Shown here: positions 5,669 through 56,849 of the stretch, in pieces
How the letters are laid out: every line of letters begins with the position of its first letter
Position numbering within the stretch: position 1 is the first letter of the stretch
NCBI RefSeq assembly: GCF_011058215.1
Contig: NZ_JAALFG010000001.1
Coordinates: forward strand, 687,001-751,000
Length of the DNA stretch: 64,000 nucleotides
DNA from: Devosia aurantiaca
Lineage (GTDB): Bacteria > Pseudomonadota > Alphaproteobacteria > Rhizobiales > Devosiaceae
Direction: 5' to 3'
Notes under the pieces: model-generated
Seen by the model: the letters and a program-made list of their open reading frames with translations, nothing else
Databases searched by the model: none
What the model was told of the DNA's origin: nothing
Position numbers and translations under genes: made by a program

Positions 5669-7326
5669 TCACTCCTCAGTTGGGGTTTTTTCTGAAGGCG
5701 TGGGGATTGCGGCAACCGGCTCCGCCGCAGAGGCCTTGGCGAACCGCACAAAAGCGTTGGCCAATTCTGCTTCCGGTCCTTCCGGTTGCATGACCAGAAA
5801 CTGCTCGTAGGTCGCAATCGCCTCGGCTTTTCGACCGAGCGAATCGAGGCTGCGTGCCCGTGCGTAGACGACCTTTGGATTGCTGGGATCGCGTTGTGCG
5901 GCAAGATCGATGTCGATCAGCGCATCTTCGTGACGCCCCAATGCCGTTAGCGCGTCGGCCCTGCTGAGGCGATAATCGACATTGCCTTCATTGACGAGCA
6001 GCGCCTGATCGAGCCGCGCCAAGGCGGCTTCGTAATTGCCGTTTATCATCAGAAGGTTGGCGTGTTGCGCTTGGAAGGTGTCGTTCTCGGGCGCAAATTC
6101 GGCCGCGTCGCGATAAAGCTTTTCGAGAGCCACGAAGTCACCCTGCCCGGCATAGTAGCCGGCTAGGAAACCCAGGGGGAGAGGATCGCTGGGGCTCAAT
6201 GCGAAGGCTGCAAGGGCCAGCTCCAGCGCTTCATCGGTTCGGTCCTCGCTCAAGAGCATGAACGCCGCCTTGGTCTTGTAACGAGCGTTGAGCGGATCGC
6301 GGTCCGAGGCGAGCAGCAGGAAATCGCGCGCTCCTTCGATATCTCCACGCGCGCGTGCAATGACGCTGCGGACCTCCGCTTCCAGCGGACTTTCCGGATC
6401 GACCGCCGCCAACCGCACGAGATAGGGCTCGGCTTCTTCGAACCGGTCGTTTTCGGCCAATGTGCTTGCCATATTGGCGAGTGCCGGTGGGAAGCGAGGA
6501 TCAATATCGAGAGCGGCCCGATATTCGGCCAGCGCATCCTCCGGCTCCTCGGCATTGCGGCGCACGTTTCCCAGCACATTGTGCGCCCATTTGGCGTCTT
6601 CGTGTCCCGATGCGATCAGTTGCCGTGCGATGGTTGCGGCATTGAGGGATGGGTGTCGACCTCGGCCGCGAGTGCGGTGAACGGATCGAGGTGGCGCATG
6701 ACTTCCAGCCCGGCGGTGCGGAAATATTCGGCTTCGGTGGATCGTCGCATCGGCGGCAGGTCGATGACATTGCGCTCCTTGCCCTTGATGCGCAGGCGCA
6801 GGGAGACTTTTGCGGGCGAGCATTCGGCGTCGCCGCAGCGGAATTCGCCGCCGATCACGGTTTCATGGAGGTTGAAGAACTGGCGCGCATAGCTCACCAG
6901 CGCGTCGACCGATATGCCGGACTCGGGGATGTCGAAGGTGGTCTGCTCGCCTTCGGGAATGGCATTGATGCTGGATTTGTCGCTATCTGCCTCGGCGATG
7001 ATCTGCAGCAAGCCGTCATTAAGGCGCGCGGAGGCGACTTCCGGCGTAAGGCCGGTGACCTGGAGGCCGCCGGGGACGCTGATGGGCTCAAGGAGGATCT
7101 GGTCGCGCGCCGCCTGGCTCGCGATCAGTGGCGCGGCCATGAGGATGATGGCAAGCAGCACGAGGTTGACCACCACGGCGCGCATCGAGTTCGAGGTGGA
7201 TTCGACAGTGGGCAGCGTGAGCCAGGCCGGTCGCTGTAAACGCCTTGTGCCCGCCACCTTCTCCTTTGGCGGCGCCGCTTCTGCCGGTGCTGGAGCGCCC
7301 GTTTCCGCCTGCTTGTCGTCGCTCAT
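5669..7326 (-). CDS. Membrane-anchored TPR protein (frameshifted)
   Basis: Read as one protein of about 552 residues split by a frame break near 6646-6648. The N-terminal part has a Pro/Ala-rich cytosolic start, one membrane helix (VVVNLVLLAIILMAAPLIA) and a periplasmic domain with a Cys pair (RCGDAEC). The frame then runs into EVDTHP; restoring one C gives a smooth continuation LNAATIARQLIASGHEDAKW and a series of TPR units. The second half has no good start of its own, which supports a single gene. The ATG at 7326 overlaps the stop of the DUF2235 gene (ATGA), so the two are co-translated. Probably a scaffold; partner unknown. Confidence 0.7.
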
Positions 7327-8684
7327 GCCACTCTCTCCGGCAGCCACAAGGCCTGCCCCGCGTAAATTGCATCCATCCGCGCCAGCTTGTTGGCATTGGC
7401 GCGAAAAATCAGTGTCTCGGACTCGGCTGAGCCATAGGTCGCCAAGGCAATGCTGCGGAGGGTTTCGCCCTCACGCACGATATGGATCGAGGCGCCGGTC
7501 AGCGCTTCGTCTGCCGGCTCAGGGAGTGCGTCGAGTTCTGCTGCGAGCGGTTCCAGTGTCGGGGGCCGGTAGGGCGCGCCTTCGGGGAGGTTCTCGGGCT
7601 TTTCGCGCCAACGCCGCCAGACGCTTGGGCTGATCTCGTGCAGCCTGGCCGGGCCCGGATTGCGATCCGCTTTGGGCAAGCGGTTCATGACGAAGCGCAG
7701 CGCCGAAAAGCCGGCATTGTCGGCTTGATTGCTGAGGCTTTCGCGGTGCGACATGGCCATGCTCTGAAGGGGCGAGCCCGGGCCGGTGTCGAGATCGAGG
7801 CCGGCATGCCGAGCGCCGTCCCAGATCCAGTCCAACGCCGCGTCCGAAAGGCCGCGCTTGGCGCCACCGCCGCCGACCGATCCATGCGTGCCGCAAAACC
7901 ACACCTGTTGATAGGGCGCGTCAACCGCTGCCGGATCGGCGTCGCGCGCCTCGTTGAGGGCATCGAGGTTCTGCCAGAGCGTCGGCTCGAAATCGATCCG
8001 GTGCTCGTCGATCGCGACCGCGTGGCGCGCATGCTGCACCATGGGCGACAGGCTCACATCATGAAATTGATGCTGGCGATTGATGGTGTCCGCCATGATC
8101 ACGTAGCGCGGAATGCCGAGCGACCCCACCGTGTCCCAGACGGCAAGATACTTGACCGTCAGGAGCGGTAGCGTGCCGGGTGAATAATCTTTTGTGGCCT
8201 GGGCGCGCCATTCGTCCTCTTCAGCCGAGACGCATAGCTGGGGTACGCATTCGCTGCGAAACTCGAGCATTGACTGGAGATAGGCCTCGTCCTTGCTGCG
8301 CCGTTTGTAGCGGTTCACCGCCTCGTCGGCGCGCCGCGCGTGACGGCGATCGAGAATGCCGCAGGTGCCCAGAAGACCGACGAACGAGCGCGCCGTATAG
8401 GCGCCTCGGGAAAAGCCGAAGACGTAGATTTCGTCGCCGGGCGCGTAGTTGAAGATCAGGAAGCGGTAGCCATCGCTCAAATTCTTGACGAGGCCGGCGC
8501 CGAATACGCCGCCGGCAAGGCCTTCGCCCGGTTCGCTGCCCACGCCTTCGTCGTAAAAGGTGATCTGCGTCACCCCGTCTGCGGCCATCGGCAGCACACT
8601 TTCGGCGGTCAGCAGCACATTGGTCGGATGCGGCGCATCCAGCCGGTTCCAACTGCCATCAAAACAGAAGACCAGCCGTTTCAC
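7323..8684 (-). CDS. DUF2235 (Tle1-like) alpha/beta hydrolase with C-terminal LysM
   Basis: Residues 1-380 match the DUF2235 family: KRLVFCFDGSWNRLD at the start, FYDEGVGS, and the nucleophile elbow GFSRGAYTAR. Members include the type VI secretion phospholipases Tle1. The last 55 residues (IHIVREGETLRSIALATYG...AGQALWLPE) form a LysM module, which normally binds peptidoglycan. No type VI secretion gene is nearby and no signal peptide is visible. I prefer the GTG at 8684, ten bases after the upstream stop, with an AGGCGG-like site; an ATG at 8726 would overlap the SEL1 gene. Enzymatic activity on lipids is an inference. Confidence 0.82.
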   Translation of the reverse strand: MKRLVFCFDGSWNRLDAPHPTNVLLTAESVLPMAADGVTQITFYDEGVGSEPGEGLAGGVFGAGLVKNLSDGYRFLIFNYAPGDEIYVFGFSRGAYTARSFVGLLGTCGILDRRHARRADEAVNRYKRRSKDEAYLQSMLEFRSECVPQLCVSAEEDEWRAQATKDYSPGTLPLLTVKYLAVWDTVGSLGIPRYVIMADTINRQHQFHDVSLSPMVQHARHAVAIDEHRIDFEPTLWQNLDALNEARDADPAAVDAPYQQVWFCGTHGSVGGGGAKRGLSDAALDWIWDGARHAGLDLDTGPGSPLQSMAMSHRESLSNQADNAGFSALRFVMNRLPKADRNPGPARLHEISPSVWRRWREKPENLPEGAPYRPPTLEPLAAELDALPEPADEALTGASIHIVREGETLRSIALATYGSAESETLIFRANANKLARMDAIYAGQALWLPERVA

Positions 8685-8694
8685 GTCAGCCGCC

Positions 8695-9795
8695 TCAGCC
8701 TGCGATCGCGGCCTCGATGGCCTCAAGATGCTCGGTGAAGGTTTCGTCCGCTGGATCGAGCTCGATCGCCTTCTTGATCACGGGAAGCGCTTCCTTGCTG
8801 CGCCCATCCTTGTGCAACACCCAGGCCAGCGTATCGTGATAGGTCGCCTTGTCCGGCTCGGCGGCGACGGCGGCGCGGGACAGCGCCTCGGCATCCTTGA
8901 GGTCATCGCCCTCGGTCGCAAACATCCAGGCCAGGTTGTTTTGCGCGCTGGCGACATCGGCGGGTTGGCCCTCGCTGATGGCCTTGCGGAAATAGTCCTC
9001 GGCTTTCGCGAGGTCCCGTTCGACCCCGGTGCCCTGGATATAGTGCTGCGCCAGGTTGTTGGAGGCCAGCGCCATGCCCTGGTCCGACGCCAGGGCGTAA
9101 AGGCGGACGGCTTCCTCGGGGTCTTTTGCGAGCCCGCCCCGACCATTTTCGTAATAAGTCGCCAGATTATTCTGCGCGAAGTCGATGCCCGCATCGGCCG
9201 CGATCTGGTAGAGGCGCACGGCTTCGACGTCATCCTGCGCAACGCCCCAGCCATTTTCGGTGAGCCACCCCAGCGAAGCCGTCGCCCAATCCGAGCCATC
9301 CTCGGAAGCCTGTCGGTAAAGCTCAGCCGCGCGGGCATAATCCTGCTTCACGCCGTTGCCAGTCTCGTAGAGCTTGCCCATGCCTTCGATGGCAATGCGC
9401 ACGCCGCCCTCAAGCGCCGGCTGATAGAGTTCTGCCGCACGCTCGTAGTCGATGTCGACGCCAAGGCCAAATTCATAGAGCTGCCCCAGCGCTGCCCGTG
9501 CCTTGAGGCTGCCACCATCCATGGCGGCGGTATAGTGGATATGGGCTTTTTCGTAGTCTTCCGCAGCGTCATAGGCGCGCGCGAGGCCATATCGGAAGTC
9601 GATATTGTCCGGTTCCGCCTTGGCCGCATCGAGACAGGCTTCGATGGCGCCGATCGGTTCGATATCGTCGAACTCGACGCCTTCCCCGACGCGCTCAGAG
9701 CAGAGCTCGGCCGCCGACTGCTCCTGTGCCAAGGCAGGCACCGACATGGCTCCAACAACAAATGTCGCTGCAAGCATCGTGCGCACAAACGTCAT
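8695..9795 (-). CDS. Secreted SEL1-repeat protein
   Basis: Protein of 366 residues with a signal peptide (MTFVRTMLAATFVVGAMSVP, cleavage after ALA). Many SEL1-like units of about 36 residues follow (YGLARAYDAAEDYEKAHIHY, LGQLYEFGLGVDIDYERAAE, NNLAQHYIQGTGVERDLAKA), with TPR-like helices at the C-terminus. Such solenoids bind proteins, often in the periplasm. It is the first gene of a three-gene operon with the DUF2235-LysM hydrolase and the membrane TPR protein, so it could be an inhibitor or adaptor for the hydrolase. Confidence 0.9.
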   Translation of the reverse strand: MTFVRTMLAATFVVGAMSVPALAQEQSAAELCSERVGEGVEFDDIEPIGAIEACLDAAKAEPDNIDFRYGLARAYDAAEDYEKAHIHYTAAMDGGSLKARAALGQLYEFGLGVDIDYERAAELYQPALEGGVRIAIEGMGKLYETGNGVKQDYARAAELYRQASEDGSDWATASLGWLTENGWGVAQDDVEAVRLYQIAADAGIDFAQNNLATYYENGRGGLAKDPEEAVRLYALASDQGMALASNNLAQHYIQGTGVERDLAKAEDYFRKAISEGQPADVASAQNNLAWMFATEGDDLKDAEALSRAAVAAEPDKATYHDTLAWVLHKDGRSKEALPVIKKAIELDPADETFTEHLEAIEAAIAG

Positions 9796-42778: not shown

Positions 42779-45700
42779 CTATCGAGGGATAAAGTAACGA
42801 TCTTGGCCTTCCATGCGTCCGGAACGGGCAAGGCCGATAGTGGTCAGGGTTACGAGCAGCGAGGCGACGCGGTCCCGGCGCTTAGTCGTGTTGCGGCCAT
42901 CGAAAGTGGCGGCAAGTATTTCAGACGGGACAGGCGAGGGAGCCTTGCGGAGGAGGTCGACAAGGATGTTAATCTGTTCAGTATCGCTGGTGGGCCATCT
43001 GGGCTTGTCGCTGACCGGCAGAATGGCGATGTCGGCTTCCTGCTGGATGCCATCAAGTCGCGCAACTTTGTGGCCAAGCTTCGGAATTTGATAGTCGGGT
43101 CGCAGCCATCGGACCAAACCGCGCGCTTCCTCAGCGGCGCGTTCCTGATTGAGAGTGACGAGACGGGTGAGCAACTCTTCCTCGGCGGCGAGTTGGTCAT
43201 CGGTTTTATAAGGGCTGGGCGTTGTCGCGCCGGGGCGGCCTACAAGACGCGGAGCGAGATCGGACCAGCCGTAGGCAGCCAGAACTAGGGTGTCGATCTT
43301 GTCATGAATATCCTTGAGTATGGCGATGTGCCCAGCCTCATAGATATCGCGTTCCTTATCGGATAGCCGCTCGATCTGCGCAGCGCTGTCGCTGTGACGG
43401 CCGGCGCCGGCTTTCCAGTCAAGCTCGCGGACACGTTCGAGCACGTTGTAGAGCCCGGTCATGGTTAGAAAATCATGCGCAGCAAGGCGCTCCTTGCGGA
43501 ATGCGTCGAGACGTTCGCCGAGGTCGACTAAGTCAACGTTTCTGAGAAGCCACGGAAACGTAGTGAAGCATTCGCTGTGGTTATAATTAGAATCGTCACC
43601 CACACCTAGCCTTGCCCAATCTTCAGACCAGAGAAGATGAACTCTAGAGCTGAGGCTGGACAAGAAAGCGCCATCGGATGATGCAATGGCAATGATCTTC
43701 GCATCAGGCACAATGGAGTTCAGCTCAAAGTTGAACAGTCTATGTGTTGCCGTACGGCAAGTGGCAATGTACCGCTTGATGGTGGATATTTGATCCATTA
43801 GCTCTGGCCGCCGACGGCCCCAACGCCACCATTGCTCCTTGAAAACAGGGTCAGCGTTCTCGATTCTGGAAGGGCGAACATTGTCTGAAAGGTGCTGGTA
43901 TATCTTTGGATAATTGCTTGCCAATTCGGCTTCTGAGAACTTGTTCGCGTCGATAACGTACTTTTCGTCCCAGCCGTAAAGGAGATCGCTACCAATTTTG
44001 TAGGGGCGCACCAAGCCCTCTCTAACTTCATCATGGTAATTCGCTACTGCGACTGCGTTTAGGCGAAAGCCTGAGCCCACAGTGATTACACCCTGATGGG
44101 CAATTAAATCATTTTGAATGAGTGTCCCAGATGAAGTTACAGCTGCGCCTATTCGAAGGCCCGCAGATATGTGCCCCACTGACGCATGGGTTAGAACATC
44201 GAAGTATCCGTCCGAATTAGCGCGTTCCTGAAGAACTTTCTCCAGTGTTCCTACGCCGTCGCCGGGTGCGGCGACAGTCATAGCAACCCTGACTGCGGCT
44301 CCCTCGGTATCATCCACCCAAGGATGATTTGGCACGCAGTAAGTCAGGTGTATTCCACCTCTTTGAGCGCCGATGTACCTCGCCAAGACAGGGCGATTTA
44401 GAGACTGGTTGACGCTATTCGTCGTGACAAAACCTAAAGCTCTTGCTTTGCCGGCCCCAACGGCAGCCGCTGCTCTCGCCCACCAGTACAGTACAAAGTC
44501 TATCGAACCAGGCAGATCGCCATAGGCTTCGCGGACGGCATCAACGTAGCCGGTACCTAGCCTATCCCGCATCCGCTTATTGCCAATGAATGGAGGATTG
44601 GCGACGATAAACTCTGCTTCGGGCCATTGGGCTGGACGCGGATTGCGATATCTATAAATCTCGATGCGGGCTTCCGGATCTGGTACCTTCTGGAAGCTGA
44701 CCGGATGGATCATGTAGGTCACGCCGTCCCAACGGGTCACCGGGACGCCGTCCTCGTCACGCACCAATTCCTTGCTGTCATAGGCGAGAATTGCGTCTTG
44801 TTGGCGGATTGTGCCATAGGCGTGCAGGACCGGCTCCGAGATAGCGTTGGGCCCCGCCGTTCGCAGCTGCCATTTGAGATAGCCGATCCACAGCACCAAA
44901 TCGGCTATTGGCACAGCGCGAGGATTTAGTTCGAGACCGTAGAATTGGCGGGGCGAAACAGTTTCGCCCTCCATCATCAGGCGAGACTGATCTTCTCCTA
45001 ACGATTCGATTGCGGCGAGTACTTCGCCCTCTAGCTTCTTGAGCAGTTCGAGCGAGACATAAAGGAAATTGCCCGTGCCACACGCGGGATCAAGCACGCG
45101 GATCGTGCAAAGCTCGTGATGGAAAGCCTTGGCACGGGCCAGGGCGGTGGCTAGATCGGCGTTCTTGAGGGCTTCCTCGATTGTTGCTTGCACCTTATCC
45201 CAATTTGCGCGCAACGGCTCAATAATCGTCGGCACGACTAAGCGTTCGACATAAGCGCGGGGCGTGTAGTGCGCACCCAGCTTGGAGCGTTCGCGCGGAT
45301 CAAGGGCGCGTTCTAACAGAGTGCCAAAGATGGCGGGCTCAACATCACGCCAGTCCATGCGAGCGGCTACTAGAAGCTCGTGAATGTCTTCTGGCGCGAG
45401 CGGCAGCGCTTTGGGCCGAGCAAAAAGGCCGCCATTGAAATGCTTAAGGCTGGCCATGGAATGGGGCTCGAAGCCGCCGCTGTTCATGGTCCTCCAAAGA
45501 CTCTCCATAGCAGGAGGAAAGGCAGTGGGATTGTCGACCAGCTTTTCGAGCAGTTCGACCATTAGTTTTTTAGGTAAAAGGCCAACATCCTCGGCGAACA
45601 TGGTGAAAAGACACCGCATCAGGAATTCGGCAACATCCTTCGGGTCATGCTTGCCTTCGAGCCGCTTGGCAATAATTGAGAGGCGCCCGGCAATGTCGCG

Positions 45701-46342
45701 GGTGACTTCCGCAGATTTTTTCGCTGGGTCGAGGCTTTGCGGGTCGGTCCAGACGGCTTTCAAGCGCGCCTGAATGACAGGATCTCGCAGGTCTTCCATA
45801 AAGATGCGGAAGTTCTTAGCATCGGGAAACTGCGCGTAGTTTTTGCCCTGGCCGGAAAAATCCGCATAAAGCTCAATTACGTGGCCGACATCCACGAGGA
45901 TGACGAATGGTGGATAGCCATGTTCAATCGGCAGGTGACGGGTGTAGTCCACCGCTTGGGTGTAGGCAGCGCGCATGACGCGATCCCATCCGCGCGAGCC
46001 GCGACGGGCGTGGCCCATTCTTCGGCTGTTGGCTTCGGAACCGAACAAGCTTGTCTGGCGCTCGTCGTCGGCTTGGCGACGGGCCGATTGTTTGGCTTCG
46101 AGTACAAAACTACCACGTTTGTAACAGTCGACATAGAGCTTGGTGGTGGAGCCGTCAGGGTGGCGATAATCGAGGCTGCGCTCGAAAACGTAGTCATTGC
46201 GAGCGTTGATTTCTTGACTCATCGCCGGGCCCGGCACGCCTAGCACATCGCAAAGACCAGAGATGAAAAGCTGGTAGTTCGCTCGTTCTGAACCGCCTGA
46301 GGCCGCAGCTTCAGCGATGAGCTTATCAAGCAATGTCAACAC
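42779..46342 (-). CDS. MmeI-like type IIG restriction-modification enzyme
   Basis: Single-chain enzyme of 1187 residues. N-terminal nuclease motif D72-X9-E82-A-K84 ([14 protein letters not shown]) has the same spacing as MmeI. A helical linker ([31 protein letters not shown]) precedes the adenine methyltransferase: motif [14 protein letters not shown] at 416-428, motif IV ANPPF at 581-585. The following target-recognition part (about residues 650-950, 43500-44400) is visibly more AT-rich than the flanks. Such enzymes both methylate and cut. A methyltransferase-only role, as in some defence systems, is an alternative, but no partner genes are present. Confidence 0.85.
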
Positions 46343-46445: not shown

Positions 46446-48249
<1,804 letters not shown>

Positions 48250-48340
48250 GGGCTGCTCCTAGCAGAAGCGCGGTGTGCGAGAAAGATGGTTTCCGTGGGG
48301 TTAACGGGCAACAACGCCGTGTTTTGGCGCGTTAAGGGGC

Positions 48341-49455: not shown

Positions 49456-50375
49456 TGGCTAGTCCGTTTCCCATTCCGCTCAATGCCCTGCGTGCGATCG
49501 AGATCGTGGCGCGGCGAGGCGCGCTGGCGCCGGCGGCGGAAGAGCTGGGTGTGACGGTTGGTGCGGTCAGCCAACATCTGCGCCGGGCCGAGGAGCGGCT
49601 GGGCGTCGAACTTTTCGAGCGCACGCCGTTGGGCCTGCGGCCGCTGCCCGCATTGCAGCAGGTGCTGCCGCAGCTGAGCTCGGGCTTTACGGCGCTTGCG
49701 GATGGGCTCAAGGCATTGCGGGCGGCCGATGAAAGCGTGCTCAATGTCACGGTGGGCAGCGTCTTTGCCTCGCGCTGGCTGATCTGGCGGGTGCACAAGT
49801 TTACGGCGCTTAGCGGCATCGAAGTGCGGCTCACGGTGACCGGCGCCATGCTGGACCTGGGTCGCGCCGACATCGACTGCGGCATCCGCTATGGCCATGG
49901 CGACTGGCCGGGGGTCGAGACGACGCTAATCGGCGGACGCGACTTCCAGCCAGTGGCGGCGCCGGACCTGCTCGCGAAGTTCGAGGGGGTCGATCTCGGC
50001 CGCATGCCGGTGATCGAGGACCGGACATCGATGCTCGACTGGCCGCTTTGGCTGAACGCGATGGAGCTCGATCCCCAAACCAAGTTCAGCGGGCCGGTCT
50101 ATTCGGATGCCTCGCTCGCCTTTGATGCCGCGATTTCCGGTCAAGGCCTGCTCTTGGCAGCCGACATGATGAGCGCCGATGCGGTGAGCGATGGCCGGCT
50201 CGTCCGCCCCTTTGAATATGCGGTGGAAGGCCCGAGCGGCTATTTTCTCGCGACAGCCAAGGGAAGGCGCGAGACCAGGGCGCTGCGAACGTTCCGCGAT
50301 TGGCTGGCTGCCGAAGTCCCTGCCAGTGCTAATGGCTATGTAGCGCAGCTGAACGCAAAAAAGCCGCCGCCCTGA
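49455..50375 (+). CDS. LysR-family transcriptional regulator (GcvA-like)
   Basis: Regulator of 306 residues: winged helix LNALRAIEIVARRGALAPAA, EELGVTVGAVSQHLRRAEER, ELFERTPLGLRPL, then a GcvA-type effector domain (FASRWLIWRVHKFTALSGIE, IDCGIRYGHGDWPGVETTLI, SGQGLLLAADMMSAD). Target unknown; neighbours give no clear hint. Its last codons overlap a bidirectional terminator. Confidence 0.9.
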   Translation: MASPFPIPLNALRAIEIVARRGALAPAAEELGVTVGAVSQHLRRAEERLGVELFERTPLGLRPLPALQQVLPQLSSGFTALADGLKALRAADESVLNVTVGSVFASRWLIWRVHKFTALSGIEVRLTVTGAMLDLGRADIDCGIRYGHGDWPGVETTLIGGRDFQPVAAPDLLAKFEGVDLGRMPVIEDRTSMLDWPLWLNAMELDPQTKFSGPVYSDASLAFDAAISGQGLLLAADMMSADAVSDGRLVRPFEYAVEGPSGYFLATAKGRRETRALRTFRDWLAAEVPASANGYVAQLNAKKPPP

Positions 50376-50404: not shown

Positions 50405-53183
50405 TTATGCGGCGTCTGCCTCGACTTCGAAATAAAGGGTCAGGTTTGACCCTTCGATAGCGCCGCCGATGATCTGGTCGAGGGCAAGTCCGGCTTCCAC
50501 GACGCCCTGACGCAGCGATGCACTCGCCGCGACTTTGCCGCGCGCAAGACTTCGACCTGTTCCTGGCTGAGCGTCTGGACGCAGTCGGCGATGCGAACAA
50601 GCTGGACCGTGCGGACGCGGTTGACGTCCTGGGGCTCGATCGGCGTACCGGCACCAAGTGCGGCAAGGCCGACATCGCAGCTGACTTCGGCGACGACGAG
50701 ATCGATGTCGATCAGGGCTGCCGGGAGAGGTGCGGTCAGGGCGCCGTTCGGATTGACCAGGTCGCCGGTGCTGCCGGTGATCCCCACGCCTGCAGAACCG
50801 CTTCCGCCACCATTGCCACCATTGCTGCCGGTGTTGCCACCGGTATTCCCGCCAGCATTGCCACCAGTGTTCCCGCCATTGCCGCCGGTGTTACCACCCG
50901 TGCTACCGCCGGTGTTGCCACCAGTATTCCCACCAGTGTTGCCACCCGTGCTACCACCGGTGTTGCCACCGGTATTTCCACCAGTGTTGCCGCCGGTGTT
51001 GCCACCCGTATTACCACCAGTGTTGCCACCACCAGTGTTCCCACCGGTATCGGTGCCATCGGTCGCGGTGCCGCCACCAAGATCGAGCGTGACGTCTGCA
51101 ACCTGGGTATTGCCCAGTCCGCCGTCGATGAAGACCTGGGTGCCGCCATTGGTGGTCGGGCGGATGCCGATCACCGCGTCGGGTGAAAGGCCCTGATCCT
51201 CGAGAAGATCGAGCACGTCAGCGGTAATCAGAAGATCGTCGCCCTGATCGGTGCCGAGCACGGCATCGAGTTCGGCAAGCGAGTCGTCGCCAAGCAGCGC
51301 ATCGACATCGATGATCTGGATCGGTCCCGTGCCGGATCCGGTGCCGCCAGTGCCCGTGCCAGGGTTATTGCCGAGAATGCGAATGATGGCATCGAGGCGC
51401 TGGTCCTCATCGGGCAGAAGGGCGAGATCGACTTCGGCCAATTCGTCATCGGTCAAAAGATCGATGTCGAGATCGGCCAGGTCTTGACCAAGAATGCTGT
51501 CGCCGGAGGGCGTATCGCCGCCCGGAGCAACATCGCCGAGGCCAAGATCGACAAAGAGCTGGGTATTGCCCTGCTCGTCATTGCGCACGGCGACCACGGC
51601 TTCGGGCGAGAGGCCCTGCTCGTCGAGGATGTCGAGGAGGTCCGCGCTCAAGACCGGATCGTCATTGCGCTCGCCCAGCACAATGTCGACTTCTGCCAGC
51701 GAAGTGTCGTCGAGAAGTGCATCGAGATCGATGATGTCGACCTGGCCGATGCTGCCGCCGCTCGGGGTGCCATTGCCGTTTTCGAGGAGACGAATAACCG
51801 CGTCGAGGCGCTGCTCCTGGTCGGGCAGAAGCGCCAGATCGATTTCGGCCAGTTCTTCATCGGTCAGCAGGTCGATGTCGACATTGGCGAGGTCCTCGTC
51901 GATGAGGCCGCCAGTGCCATTGCCGCCGCCGGTCGAAGCCGTCTCGCCAAGACCGAGGTCGACAAAGAGCTGCGTATTGCCCTCGTCGTCATTGCGGATG
52001 GCGACGACGGCTTCGGGCGAGAGGCCCCGTTCGTCGTGAGCACGTTGAGCAAATCGGCACTGAGAACAAGATCGCCCTCGTCATCCCCGAGCACGGCATT
52101 GACGTCCGCCAGGGATGCAGGGTCGAGCAGCGAGCCGAGGTCGATGACGTCGACCGAACCGATCGGGCTCGGCGTTGGCGTCGTATTGTCCTGACCAAGA
52201 ATGCGGATCACGGCATCGACGCGCTGCTCCTGGCCGGGCAGGAGGGCGAGGTCGATTTCGGCAAGCTCTTCATCGGTCAGGAGGTCGATGTCGAGATCGG
52301 CAAGGTCGCCATCGAGGAGGGTGCCGCCCGAGGTCGGCGTTTCGGCAAGATCAACCGCGGCATCGACGACCACGAGTTCGGCGTCACCGCCGGTGCCGAT
52401 ATAAAGGGCCAAGACGTCTTCGACGGCGACACCCTCGCGATCAAGGATGCTGCCCAGCTCCGCACTTGCATCGATCGCGGCCAGAAGTTCTCCACGGCCG
52501 GCGCCGCTGCTTTCGACGAGCGCATTGACCTCGGCGAGGTTGTCGTCGCCGAAAAGTTCGGCCGTGGTGACGATGCTTACGGCGCGGTCGTCGATGACCT
52601 CATCGAGGTCGATGCCGCCAAGATTGGGCGCTGCGACGAAATCGTTGAGCGCATCCAGCCGTCCAGTATCGCCAAGGGCAGAGATGCGCAGGCCGACCAG
52701 CGGTTCGGATGGCGCGGGGGCAGGCGCCGGGGCTGGCGCGGGCGCCGCTGCGCCGCCATCGCTGCGTGGCGCGCCAACGGTGACATTGGTGCCGACGGCA
52801 TTGACGTCGATGATCGGTTGCGTGGTGGGGAAAGCGTTGAGGTCAATGATGGGTGCGGTGTTGGAGCCCGACGACGAGCGTGGCGTGGAGACGCCGATAT
52901 TTGCATCAACGCCACTGCCGCCACCAATTGTGGCGCCGGCATTGACCGATGTGCCGCCACCGGTGCTGACGCTGGCACCAGCATCGACGACGCTGGAGCC
53001 GCCGACGCTAGCGCCGGCACCGACATTGGTGCTGCCGACGCCGACATCGACACCAACGCCGAGTCCGCCTCCGGATCCGCCGCCAACACTGACGCCGAGA
53101 TTAAGCTGGGCCTGGGCGGCCTGGGGAATGGAAATGAGTGCGGCAGCAAGGGCAACCGCAGAGATTTGGCACGATGTGCGCAT
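50405..53183 (-). CDS. Giant secreted Asp-rich repeat protein (frameshifted)
   Basis: Read as one protein of about 926 residues. ATG 53183 has an AAGGAGG site and a signal peptide (VALAAALISIPQAAQAQ). Then follow a Gly/Val/Ser-rich head, a Pro-Ala hinge, three acidic units of about 136 residues (DLADLDIDLLTDEELAEIDL, LLPGQEQRVDAVIRIL, GLSPEAVVAIRNDDEGNTQL, FVDLGLG), a (GGNT)n tract, and a C-terminal domain with CDVGLAALGAGTPI and VQLVRIADCVQTLS. Frame breaks near 52036 and 50546 are repaired by one base each; the corrected end reads EGSNLTLYFEVEADAA. I do not recognise the family; a surface or matrix protein is likely. Confidence 0.75.
50801..51050. repeat. Minisatellite coding (Gly-Gly-Asn-Thr)n
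   Basis: About twenty 12-bp units of the type CCACCGGTGTTG or CCACCAGTGTT(C/G), encoding GGNT with occasional GGST and GGNA. It lies within the giant repeat gene and is prone to length change by slippage in 12-bp steps, which keeps the frame. Confidence 0.85.
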
Positions 53184-53370
53184 GGCACGAGCCTCCTTTT
53201 GGTTTATCCGTGGGCTGCCAACGCAGGTCATTTAGCCGCGGGTCCAACACAGGTGGCTGCACGGCAAAGGGGTGGTTAACGCCTATGCACCAATTGCACG
53301 GGTTGAAGCTGTCGCAAGGAGTGGCGCATGCCGCCGATGTGCATTAGCTTCCCAGAAAAAGGCGGCGTTT

Positions 53371-54623
53371 ATGGACGATGTAGTTATTCTTGGGGCCGGT
53401 ATCGTTGGCATTGCCACCGGCATTTACCTTTGCGGCGCGGTCGCAGCGTGACGCTGGTGGACAAGAGCGAGCCCGGACGGGAAACCAGTTTCGGCAATGC
53501 CGGCATCATCCAGCGCGAAGGCGTCCGGCCGCACGCCTTTCCCCGCGATTTGCATACGCTGATGCAGGTGGGGCTGCATCTGTCCACAGCCGCCCGATAC
53601 GAGCCGCTCGCGCTTCCCAGGCTGGCGCCACCGCTATTGCGCTATTGGTGGGAGAGCTCGCCCGAGCATTATCGCCGCGTCGTCGAAAATTATGCGCCGC
53701 TGATCGGGCGCTCGATCATCACCCATTCCGACCTGATCATGGCCGTGGGGCCGGAGGCCGAGGCGTTGATTTCGCGCTATGGCTGGCACCTTGCCTTCCG
53801 CAGTCAGGACAAGCTCCAAGCCGAGGAGAAGAAGGCGCGCCAGGATCATGAACGCTTCGGCATCGGCTATGAACTCATGGACTGGGCAAAGCTCAAGGCG
53901 GCAGAGCCGGGCCTGATCGGCGGCCTGGCCGGTGCCATCCACTGGACCGATCCCTGGACGGTGCGCGATCCGGGGGCGCTGGTGGCGCTTTACTTCCGGC
54001 TGTTCGAAACGCTGGGCGGCACTTTCGTGCGCGGCGCCGCTGATGGGCTGAAACCCGAGGCGGATGGCTGGTCGACGCGGGTCGATGGCCAGCAAATCCG
54101 GGCCAAGCAGGCGGTGATCGCGCTCGGACCCTGGGCGCCGGATGTGCTCGAGCCGCTCGGCTATCGCCTGCCGCTTTTCGTCAAGCGCGGCTACCATATG
54201 CATTATGAGGCGCCTGAAGGCGTGGAGCTCAAGCAACTGCTGCTCGATCCCGAAGTGGGCTATGCCATGGCGCCGATGGCGCGCGGTATCCGCATCACGA
54301 CGGGCGCCGAGTTCGCCCTGCGCGACGCGGCACCGACGCCGATCCAGCTCGGCAAGGCGGAAAAAGCGGCGCGGGAACTGTTCCCGCTGGGCGAGCGGCT
54401 CGATCCGCAGCCTTGGAAGGGCGCGCGGCCCTGCACGCCCGACATGATGCCGATCATCGGCAAGGCACCGAAACATGCGGGGCTTTTCGTCGGCATCGGC
54501 CACGCCCACCATGGCTTCACGCTGGGGCCCGCAACGGGCGAACTCCTGGCGCAGCAGATGACGGGCGAGGCGACGGCGATCGACATCAAGCCGTTCCGCA
54601 TGGAGCGGTTCCTGGGGGCTTAA
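53371..54623 (+). CDS. DadA-like FAD-dependent amino-acid dehydrogenase (N-terminal frameshift)
   Basis: Flavoprotein of the DAO family, about 417 residues after repair. ATG 53371 begins MDDVVILGAGIVGIATGIYL, a textbook FAD motif; one C missing at about 53432 links it to RRGRSVTLVDKSEPGRETSF and GNAGIIQREGV. C-terminal RPCTPDMMPIIGKAPKHAGL and IGHAHHGFTLGPATGELLAQ are typical of D-amino-acid dehydrogenases. Probably oxidises a D-amino acid and feeds electrons to quinone. Substrate uncertain. Confidence 0.87.
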
Positions 54624-56256: not shown

Positions 56257-56270
56257 CTATGAGGCCTCCG

Positions 56271-56849
56271 ATGCTGTCCCTATGGCCTGATTTACGGCGG
56301 GAATTCGCCACCCTGTCGGACCGTGAAATCCTGTCGCTGGCTATTGCAGCTGAGGAAGAAGACGGGCGTCTCTATTCGGAGTTGGCGGCGCGGCTGGGTG
56401 ACGCGTTTCCCCAATGCGTTGCCCTGTTCGAGGGCATGGCAGCGGCGGAAGACGAGCAGCGACGGCGGCTGCTCGATCTTTATGTCAATCGCTTTGGCCG
56501 GCGCCTGGTGCCGATCCGGCGCGAGCATGTGCGGGGTTTTCTGCCGCGGAAGTCGATCTGGCTGATGCAGGATTTCGGCCTGGACCGGGCGAAGCAGGAA
56601 GTTCTCAAGTTGGAAGAAAGCGCCTCACGCTTCTATCTGGCGGCGGCGACGCAAGCGACCGAGGCAAGCGTCCAGAAGCTCTTCTGTGACCTTGCGGCAG
56701 AAGAAAAAGCTCACGCCATGTGGGCTAAGCAGCTAGGCGACACTGTGGGCAGCGCCGACGCCAAGAGGCGTCAGCGCTGGCTGTTGAACGTGGCGGCGCT
56801 CGGCGGCGCTCTGGTGTTCGCCGCCGGCATCTTGATTGGCTTGCTCTAG
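56271..56849 (+). CDS. Membrane-anchored ferritin-like protein (short MbfA-type)
   Basis: Protein of 192 residues: an erythrin/ferritin-like four-helix domain with diiron ligands (AIAAEEEDGRLYSELAARLG, MAAAEDEQRRRLL, LKLEESASRFYLA, LAAEEKAHAMWA) and one C-terminal membrane helix (NVAALGGALVFAAGILIGLL). MbfA of rhizobia has the same N-terminal domain but a complete VIT1/CCC1 transporter domain of five helices; here only one helix remains and the trhO gene follows after eight bases. ATG 56271 has GAGG six bases upstream. Regulated by the Irr box upstream. Confidence 0.82.
   Translation: MLSLWPDLRREFATLSDREILSLAIAAEEEDGRLYSELAARLGDAFPQCVALFEGMAAAEDEQRRRLLDLYVNRFGRRLVPIRREHVRGFLPRKSIWLMQDFGLDRAKQEVLKLEESASRFYLAAATQATEASVQKLFCDLAAEEKAHAMWAKQLGDTVGSADAKRRQRWLLNVAALGGALVFAAGILIGLL

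Follow-up and report, generated by a model that had tools for sequence, protein, structure and literature searches.

Results

The repeat protein gene and its surroundings

The window, that is, the whole stretch of 64,000 nucleotides analysed here, comes from Devosia aurantiaca (contig NZ_JAALFG010000001.1, positions 687,001 to 751,000). Between a LysR gene and a dadA-like oxidase gene, its minus strand carries a long gene with the following features, given in window coordinates.

53192..53197, minus: Shine-Dalgarno-like AGGAGG, 8 bases upstream of the ATG (from the sequence)
50405..53183, minus: the gene, from its ATG at 53183 to its stop (open reading frame and translation)
53109..53183, minus: signal peptide of 25 residues, Sec type by eye (kept in relatives)
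52698..53108, minus: Gly-rich head and Pro/Ala stretch, the fastest evolving part, dN/dS 0.27 (translation)
52344..52697, minus: ND, the N-terminal domain, a divergent copy of a small exported domain (profile comparison)
52182..52310, minus: helical spacer L1 (profile search)
51928..52154, minus: unit domain UD1, cut by the first frame break near 52035-52015
51769..51897, minus: helical spacer L2 (profile search)
51496..51744, minus: unit domain UD2 (profile search)
51358..51486, minus: helical spacer L3 (profile search)
51079..51324, minus: unit domain UD3 (profile search)
50831..51031, minus: Gly-Gly-Asn-Thr-like tract, a 12-base tandem repeat in 17 copies with 72% matches
50408..50721, minus: CD, the C-terminal domain, with two conserved Cys, cut by the second frame break near 50550-50536
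50405..50407, minus: stop codon
50362..50385, minus: terminator-like hairpin and T-run, between convergent genes

The signal peptide, MRTSCQISAVALAAALISIPQAAQA, is of typical Sec type as judged by eye and is conserved in the relatives; together with the AGGAGG 8 bases before the ATG, it bears out the signal peptide and strong ribosome site described in an earlier note on this sequence. The terminator named there is less clear. A hairpin with a T-run does follow the stop codon, and three of the five rows of terminator-like sites (five found versus 2.0 +/- 1.4 in shuffles) are this hairpin at 50385-50362, but the genes on its two sides converge, and it could equally well belong to the LysR gene, which ends at 50375.

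Each unit consists of a 43-residue helical spacer L ("LTDEELAE") and a beta-alpha-alpha-beta-beta domain of about 75 residues. The three Asp/Glu-rich units of about 136 residues that had been described are present; units 2 and 3, of 137 and 126 residues as cut here, are 60% identical to each other, and unit 1, which is cut by a frame break, is 60-65% identical to both over 95 residues. The Gly-rich head, the (GGNT)n tract and the conserved C-terminal domain were likewise recovered by translation, by a tandem-repeat search and in the alignment of the relatives. The predicted Sec signal, the strongly negative net charge and the repeated units all support the exported acidic repeat protein that the note proposed. 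It had also been called giant, which holds as a relative term: the window pieces sum to about 925 residues, and a paralogue in another Devosia genome (G029) has 1857.

Distribution of the repeat protein and variation in unit number

Spacer L was found in 10 of 75 Devosia genomes, with 32 occurrences, and in one of 297 genomes sampled from the order, which is the window's own. The ten genomes hold 11 genes for the repeat protein, nine of them intact and two broken (those of the window and of D. submarina); one more N-terminal piece, in genome G017, stops at a contig end and is excluded from the 11. All relatives with a species or strain name are Devosia: D. naphthalenivorans, D. submarina, D. 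sediminis and Devosia sp. YR412. In a scan of named genomes, a single window piece used as query gave no confirmed relative, and alignment A1 gave four Devosia loci. A plasmid search with the giant protein of G045 gave no match, and one small relative matched a single Bradyrhizobium plasmid gene named hypothetical protein. Literature listings on Devosia and Hyphomicrobiales, consisting of entries with the beginnings of abstracts, contained no entry on this protein. The repeat protein family is thus limited, in the samples searched, to part of the genus Devosia, and since 10 of 75 genomes carry the gene, the genus does not need it.

The small domain is more widespread than the spacer. It occurs in 48 of the 297 genomes of the order, mostly in short frames, and a narrower profile (A2) matches in 35 of these 297 and in 46 of the 75 Devosia genomes. 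In a sample of 385 genomes of the class, two had domain matches, namely the window's own genome and a second one from its order.

The middle of the protein is of two kinds, and ND, the Gly-rich linker and CD are constant across both. Spacers alternate with UDs in the window (three spacers), in G355 (two), in G045, D. sediminis and G356 (one each) and in the 1857-residue paralogue of G029 (eight); two to four spacers without UD are found in G029, G059, Devosia sp. YR412 (G361), D. naphthalenivorans and D. submarina. Units 2 and 3 of the window correspond to units 1 and 2 of G355, with 74% and 85% identity, and window unit 1 is extra in comparison, being 60-65% identical to every other unit over 95 residues, which indicates that closely related species have gained or lost units. 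The gene order LysR, repeat gene, dadA-like gene is common to four loci, those of the window, G355, G045 and D. sediminis. The gene list per locus was compiled greedily, and at locus L067 the giant gene was dropped from it in favour of an overlapping opposite frame.

Frame breaks, assembly quality and selection

Not mentioned in the earlier note are two changes of reading frame within the gene, near 52035-52015 and near 50550-50536. The closest relative found, in G355, has an intact frame of 812 codons at the same site, between LysR and dadA-like oxidase genes. When G355 proteins were placed on the window, the repeat protein fell into three frames, and one frame sufficed for the extensin-like gene and for the LysR gene. 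The lepA gene (46449-48258, minus strand) is 98.7-100% identical to that of G355 but spread over three frames, and the dadA-like oxidase gene (53236-54617, plus strand) occupies two frames relative to the G355 protein; on two other Devosia loci, these G355 proteins each match within one frame. The lepA and dadA-like splits are likely due to assembly indels. In the window's genome, which is 90.6% complete and in 6 contigs, a POTRA protein, presumably BamA, is found in frames of 500 and 313 residues, versus 730-765 residues in eight other Devosia genomes. A gene for an MbfA-like iron exporter (56259-56849, plus strand) matches residues 42-200 of a 367-residue G355 frame and covers the first half of the NCBIfam profile, being either truncated here or affected by a further break.

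Between the window and G355, dN/dS is 0.13 in ND, 0.10 in units 2-3, 0.17 in the first part of CD and 0.27 in the head, and 0.006-0.17 in four neighbouring genes. Synonymous divergence is 0.74-1.25 in the repeat gene and 0.22-0.55 in the neighbours. The values of 0.10-0.17 indicate that the domains are under purifying selection.

Two readings would deny the window a functional gene. In one, coding is on the plus strand, and base composition produces the minus-strand protein as a by-product. A plus-strand frame of 457 codons, from stop to stop at 51906-53276, could be read in this way, as could the long opposite frames of some relatives, but the signal peptide and the Shine-Dalgarno site are on the minus strand, orthologues in other genomes use the minus-strand frame, and it is in that frame that purifying selection acts, so that we find this reading hardly credible and take the opposite frame to be an effect of base composition. 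In the other, the window copy is a true pseudogene and both frame changes are present in the DNA of the organism. Two breaks do fall within one gene, and D. submarina likewise has a copy that is split close to the N terminus, with one in-frame stop, which suggests that some copies may truly decay. Against this, conserved genes of the same assembly are split alike (lepA, the dadA-like gene and presumably bamA), and the domains have a dN/dS of 0.10-0.17 against the intact G355 gene; we regard a pseudogene as quite unlikely. Because the lepA and dadA-like neighbours are also broken and the frame of G355 is intact at the same site, both breaks in the window copy are probably assembly indels. The feature is more than a product of chance, since eight other Devosia genomes have nine intact genes that share its terminal domains and its spacer, and judged from such sequence comparisons it is a real gene and a member of a real gene family.

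ND, UD and CD belong to one domain family

Aligned by profile (hhalign) with 28 domains taken from small exported proteins, ND, UD and CD gave probabilities of 97.7, 96.4 and 96.3 (E-values 1.8e-12, 1.3e-9 and 1.6e-9), and UD against CD gave 92.7. In controls against the related profile A6, the three reversed profiles scored 0.2, 7.9 and 0.5, column shuffles, 20 per profile for three profiles, did not exceed 1.2, and spacer L scored 2.7. UD hits were retained at an E threshold of 1e-5 if more than 60 residues lay outside ND, which left 15, and window unit 1 was excluded from the UD alignments, being cut by the frame break. Earlier comparisons with few sequences had given 95.3 for ND-UD and for ND against the small domain and weak values for the other pairs (ND-CD 44.7, UD-CD 58.5, CD-small 53.7, UD-small 23.1), and the homology of CD therefore rests on the larger profiles.

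A predicted model of ND-L-UD-L-UD (mean pLDDT 81.7) has the order strand-helix-helix-strand-strand in ND and in both UDs; its pTM of 0.38 neither fixes the relative placement of the domains nor shows an extended shape. The core of the CD model (pLDDT 80.9, pTM 0.71) has the same strand and helix order. The two Cys of CD are conserved in 10 of 10 sequences, and the pair fits a putative disulphide in an oxidising compartment. On the evidence of the profiles, the same beta-alpha-alpha-beta-beta domain, of about 75 residues, underlies ND, UD and CD, which have diverged from each other; small exported proteins of Hyphomicrobiales have one copy of it.

Both the profile homology and an N-terminal export signal, the latter by eye, place the repeat protein in this small exported domain family. 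The small proteins resemble it in having a signal peptide, the domain and, in many cases, a Gly/Ala/Asp-rich head; they differ in having one domain, neither spacer L nor the Gly-Asn-Thr linker, and a lysine content of 3.0%. The window's own genome encodes two of them, at G000:C1:1441164-1441478 (in a 195-codon frame) and G000:C2:653922-654158 (in a 233-codon frame). Such small proteins may adjoin each other, as do three in L101:2324-4436 (plus strand) and two in L105:1489-2973 (minus strand), and in each of these groups one protein has two Cys and a C-terminal end that by eye resembles CD.

Comparison with known families and folds

No Pfam or NCBIfam model reached its curated cut-off with the window pieces, as the earlier statement that the protein is of no recognised family would lead one to expect. 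Applied to the unit, that statement stands in so far as the libraries searched do not cover it and falls short in that the domain is homologous to the small exported Hyphomicrobiales proteins. A profile or Foldseek search of the unit had been suggested as a check: profile comparison relates it to those unnamed proteins, and in Foldseek the ND-L-UD-L-UD model had a best E-value of 1.6 and CD one of 0.23. A second look at the structural matches gave best Z values of 2.5 and 2.3. Searches of solved structures by sequence gave a best E-value of 0.23 for window piece P0001 and, for L, one match with an E-value of 0.35. With predicted models as queries, the structure searches establish neither a known nor a new fold. 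DUF6844 (PF20891) is absent from the matches of the window pieces; among the 10 relatives, only the 1857-residue paralogue exceeds its cut-off (27.6 versus 27 bits), with no stretch passing alone.

Two candidates were rejected. TAL-effector repeats appeared in a profile search of the PDB with E-values down to 1.6e-23, which derive from a 20-column motif summed over repeats. In TAL chains this motif sits in helix-loop repeats. Here it runs into a strand and no stretch passes alone, and we therefore take the match to be due to chance. The other candidate was membership in the POTRA family. The predicted models of ND, UD and CD have the beta-alpha-alpha-beta-beta topology described for POTRA in an excerpt of PMC4494059; POTRA (PF07244) matched weakly in 3 of 32 domains (best E 0.015), and two of the seven second-look structural rows are POTRA arms, 9ccg_D with Z 2.5 over 49 residues and 2qdf with Z 2.0 over 52 residues, both Z values at noise level. 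Pfam results for members of profiles A6 and A5 are best E-values rather than cut-offs, save for the first member. A profile comparison with 16 real POTRA domains gave probabilities of 0.1-2.1, no better than controls, and membership by sequence was rejected on this ground. What we keep is an analogy: POTRA domains such as those of BamA share the strand and helix order and stand in series, and the repeat protein differs from them in lacking any profile-level sequence relation and an outer-membrane barrel and in being acidic and lysine-free.

An RTX nonapeptide and a dockerin had been stated to be absent, in agreement with the pattern searches: the nonapeptide GGxGxDxUx was found in neither window piece, an RTX-like nonapeptide occurred once in each of 2 of 12 pieces, both from relatives, and the EF-hand-like (dockerin-like) loop pattern occurred in none of the 12.

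Lysine and tryptophan avoidance

The 12 pieces, from 11 genes, contain 0-4 Lys each, versus 9-42 expected, and no Trp in any of them. The reference consists of 49 neighbouring proteins (2.25% Lys, 0.98% Trp), taken as stop-to-stop frames common to the loci, and the expected numbers are rough because these frames may include opposite-strand ones. The 28 small domains are poor in Trp (0.11%) and not in Lys (3.0%). Net charge ranges from -72 to -114 in ten relatives and is -44 and -72 in the two window pieces. The Gly-rich linkers may account for part of the deficit.

Discussion

The reading that we prefer, and to which we give an even chance, is that of an exported modular protein, found in the samples searched only in Devosia, which would form an extended polyanionic element of the periplasm or surface, with its length set through its units and the frame breaks in the window as assembly indels. 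The protein, built from a signal peptide, a Gly-rich head, ND, L spacers with or without UD, a flexible Gly-rich linker and CD, would be exported by the Sec route and then stretch out, its folded domains strung like beads along the helical spacers and the linker. In the periplasm or on the cell surface, this polyanionic chain could act in structure, spacing or binding, its length being adjusted by duplication and loss of units, and the constant ends, ND and CD, may make the specific contacts. A Sec signal alone brings a Gram-negative protein only as far as the periplasm. The repeat protein has no recognised signal for passage through the outer membrane, and a surface location is therefore possible and not favoured over the periplasm.

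Two other functions deserve consideration. The protein might instead remain in the periplasm as a scaffold or chaperone arm, similar to a POTRA array, that binds clients or envelope partners. The Sec signal without a recognised outer-membrane export signal would suit such a role, as would the order of elements shared with POTRA (excerpt of PMC4494059), the POTRA arms among the structural rows and the weak Pfam matches; yet the real POTRA domains scored no better than controls, the structural Z values are at noise level and no beta-barrel or other envelope module is attached, and we judge this role unlikely, if still worth keeping in mind. The earlier note leaned towards calcium binding at the surface, and an RTX-like or dockerin-like calcium-dependent adhesin would have much in common with the repeat protein. 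Large RTX and other repeat adhesins are exported, repetitive and acidic and vary in unit number, as is the case here, and the linkers are rich in Gly and Asp, with the single RTX-like nonapeptides of two relatives as a further likeness. The window pieces, however, have neither nonapeptides nor EF-hand-like loops, their units are predicted alpha/beta domains with helical spacers, and RTX, dockerin and EF-hand families gave no Pfam match at E-values up to 1 for the window pieces and the 10 relatives. Type 1 secreted RTX proteins, moreover, do not use an N-terminal Sec signal such as the one predicted here. An adhesin of this kind appears highly improbable.

Beyond the extended polyanionic chain that we prefer, we put forward a wider idea tentatively, leaning somewhat against it: part of Devosia may have turned a small single-domain exported protein into a Lys- and Trp-free polyanionic chain of tunable length, as copies of the domain multiplied, a new helical spacer was added and Lys came to be avoided. 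The result would be a modular polymer of the envelope or matrix that represents a new class and is built on an undescribed domain family. Such a domain would give many hypothetical exported proteins of Hyphomicrobiales their first common name, and the path from a single-domain to a long repeat protein would lie inside one genus, with unit numbers differing between close species. That proteins of 578-1857 residues do almost entirely without lysine is unusual, and this property can be tested. The assembly of the window's genome appears to carry indels that break real genes, which calls for caution among its users.

Other genes in the window

A 1187-residue open reading frame at 42779-46342 (minus strand) has a weak, below-cut-off match to PglX-type DNA methyltransferases. 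The open reading frame at 7323-8726 (minus strand) contains a T6SS Tle1-like phospholipase catalytic domain (PF09994, E 2.9e-72).
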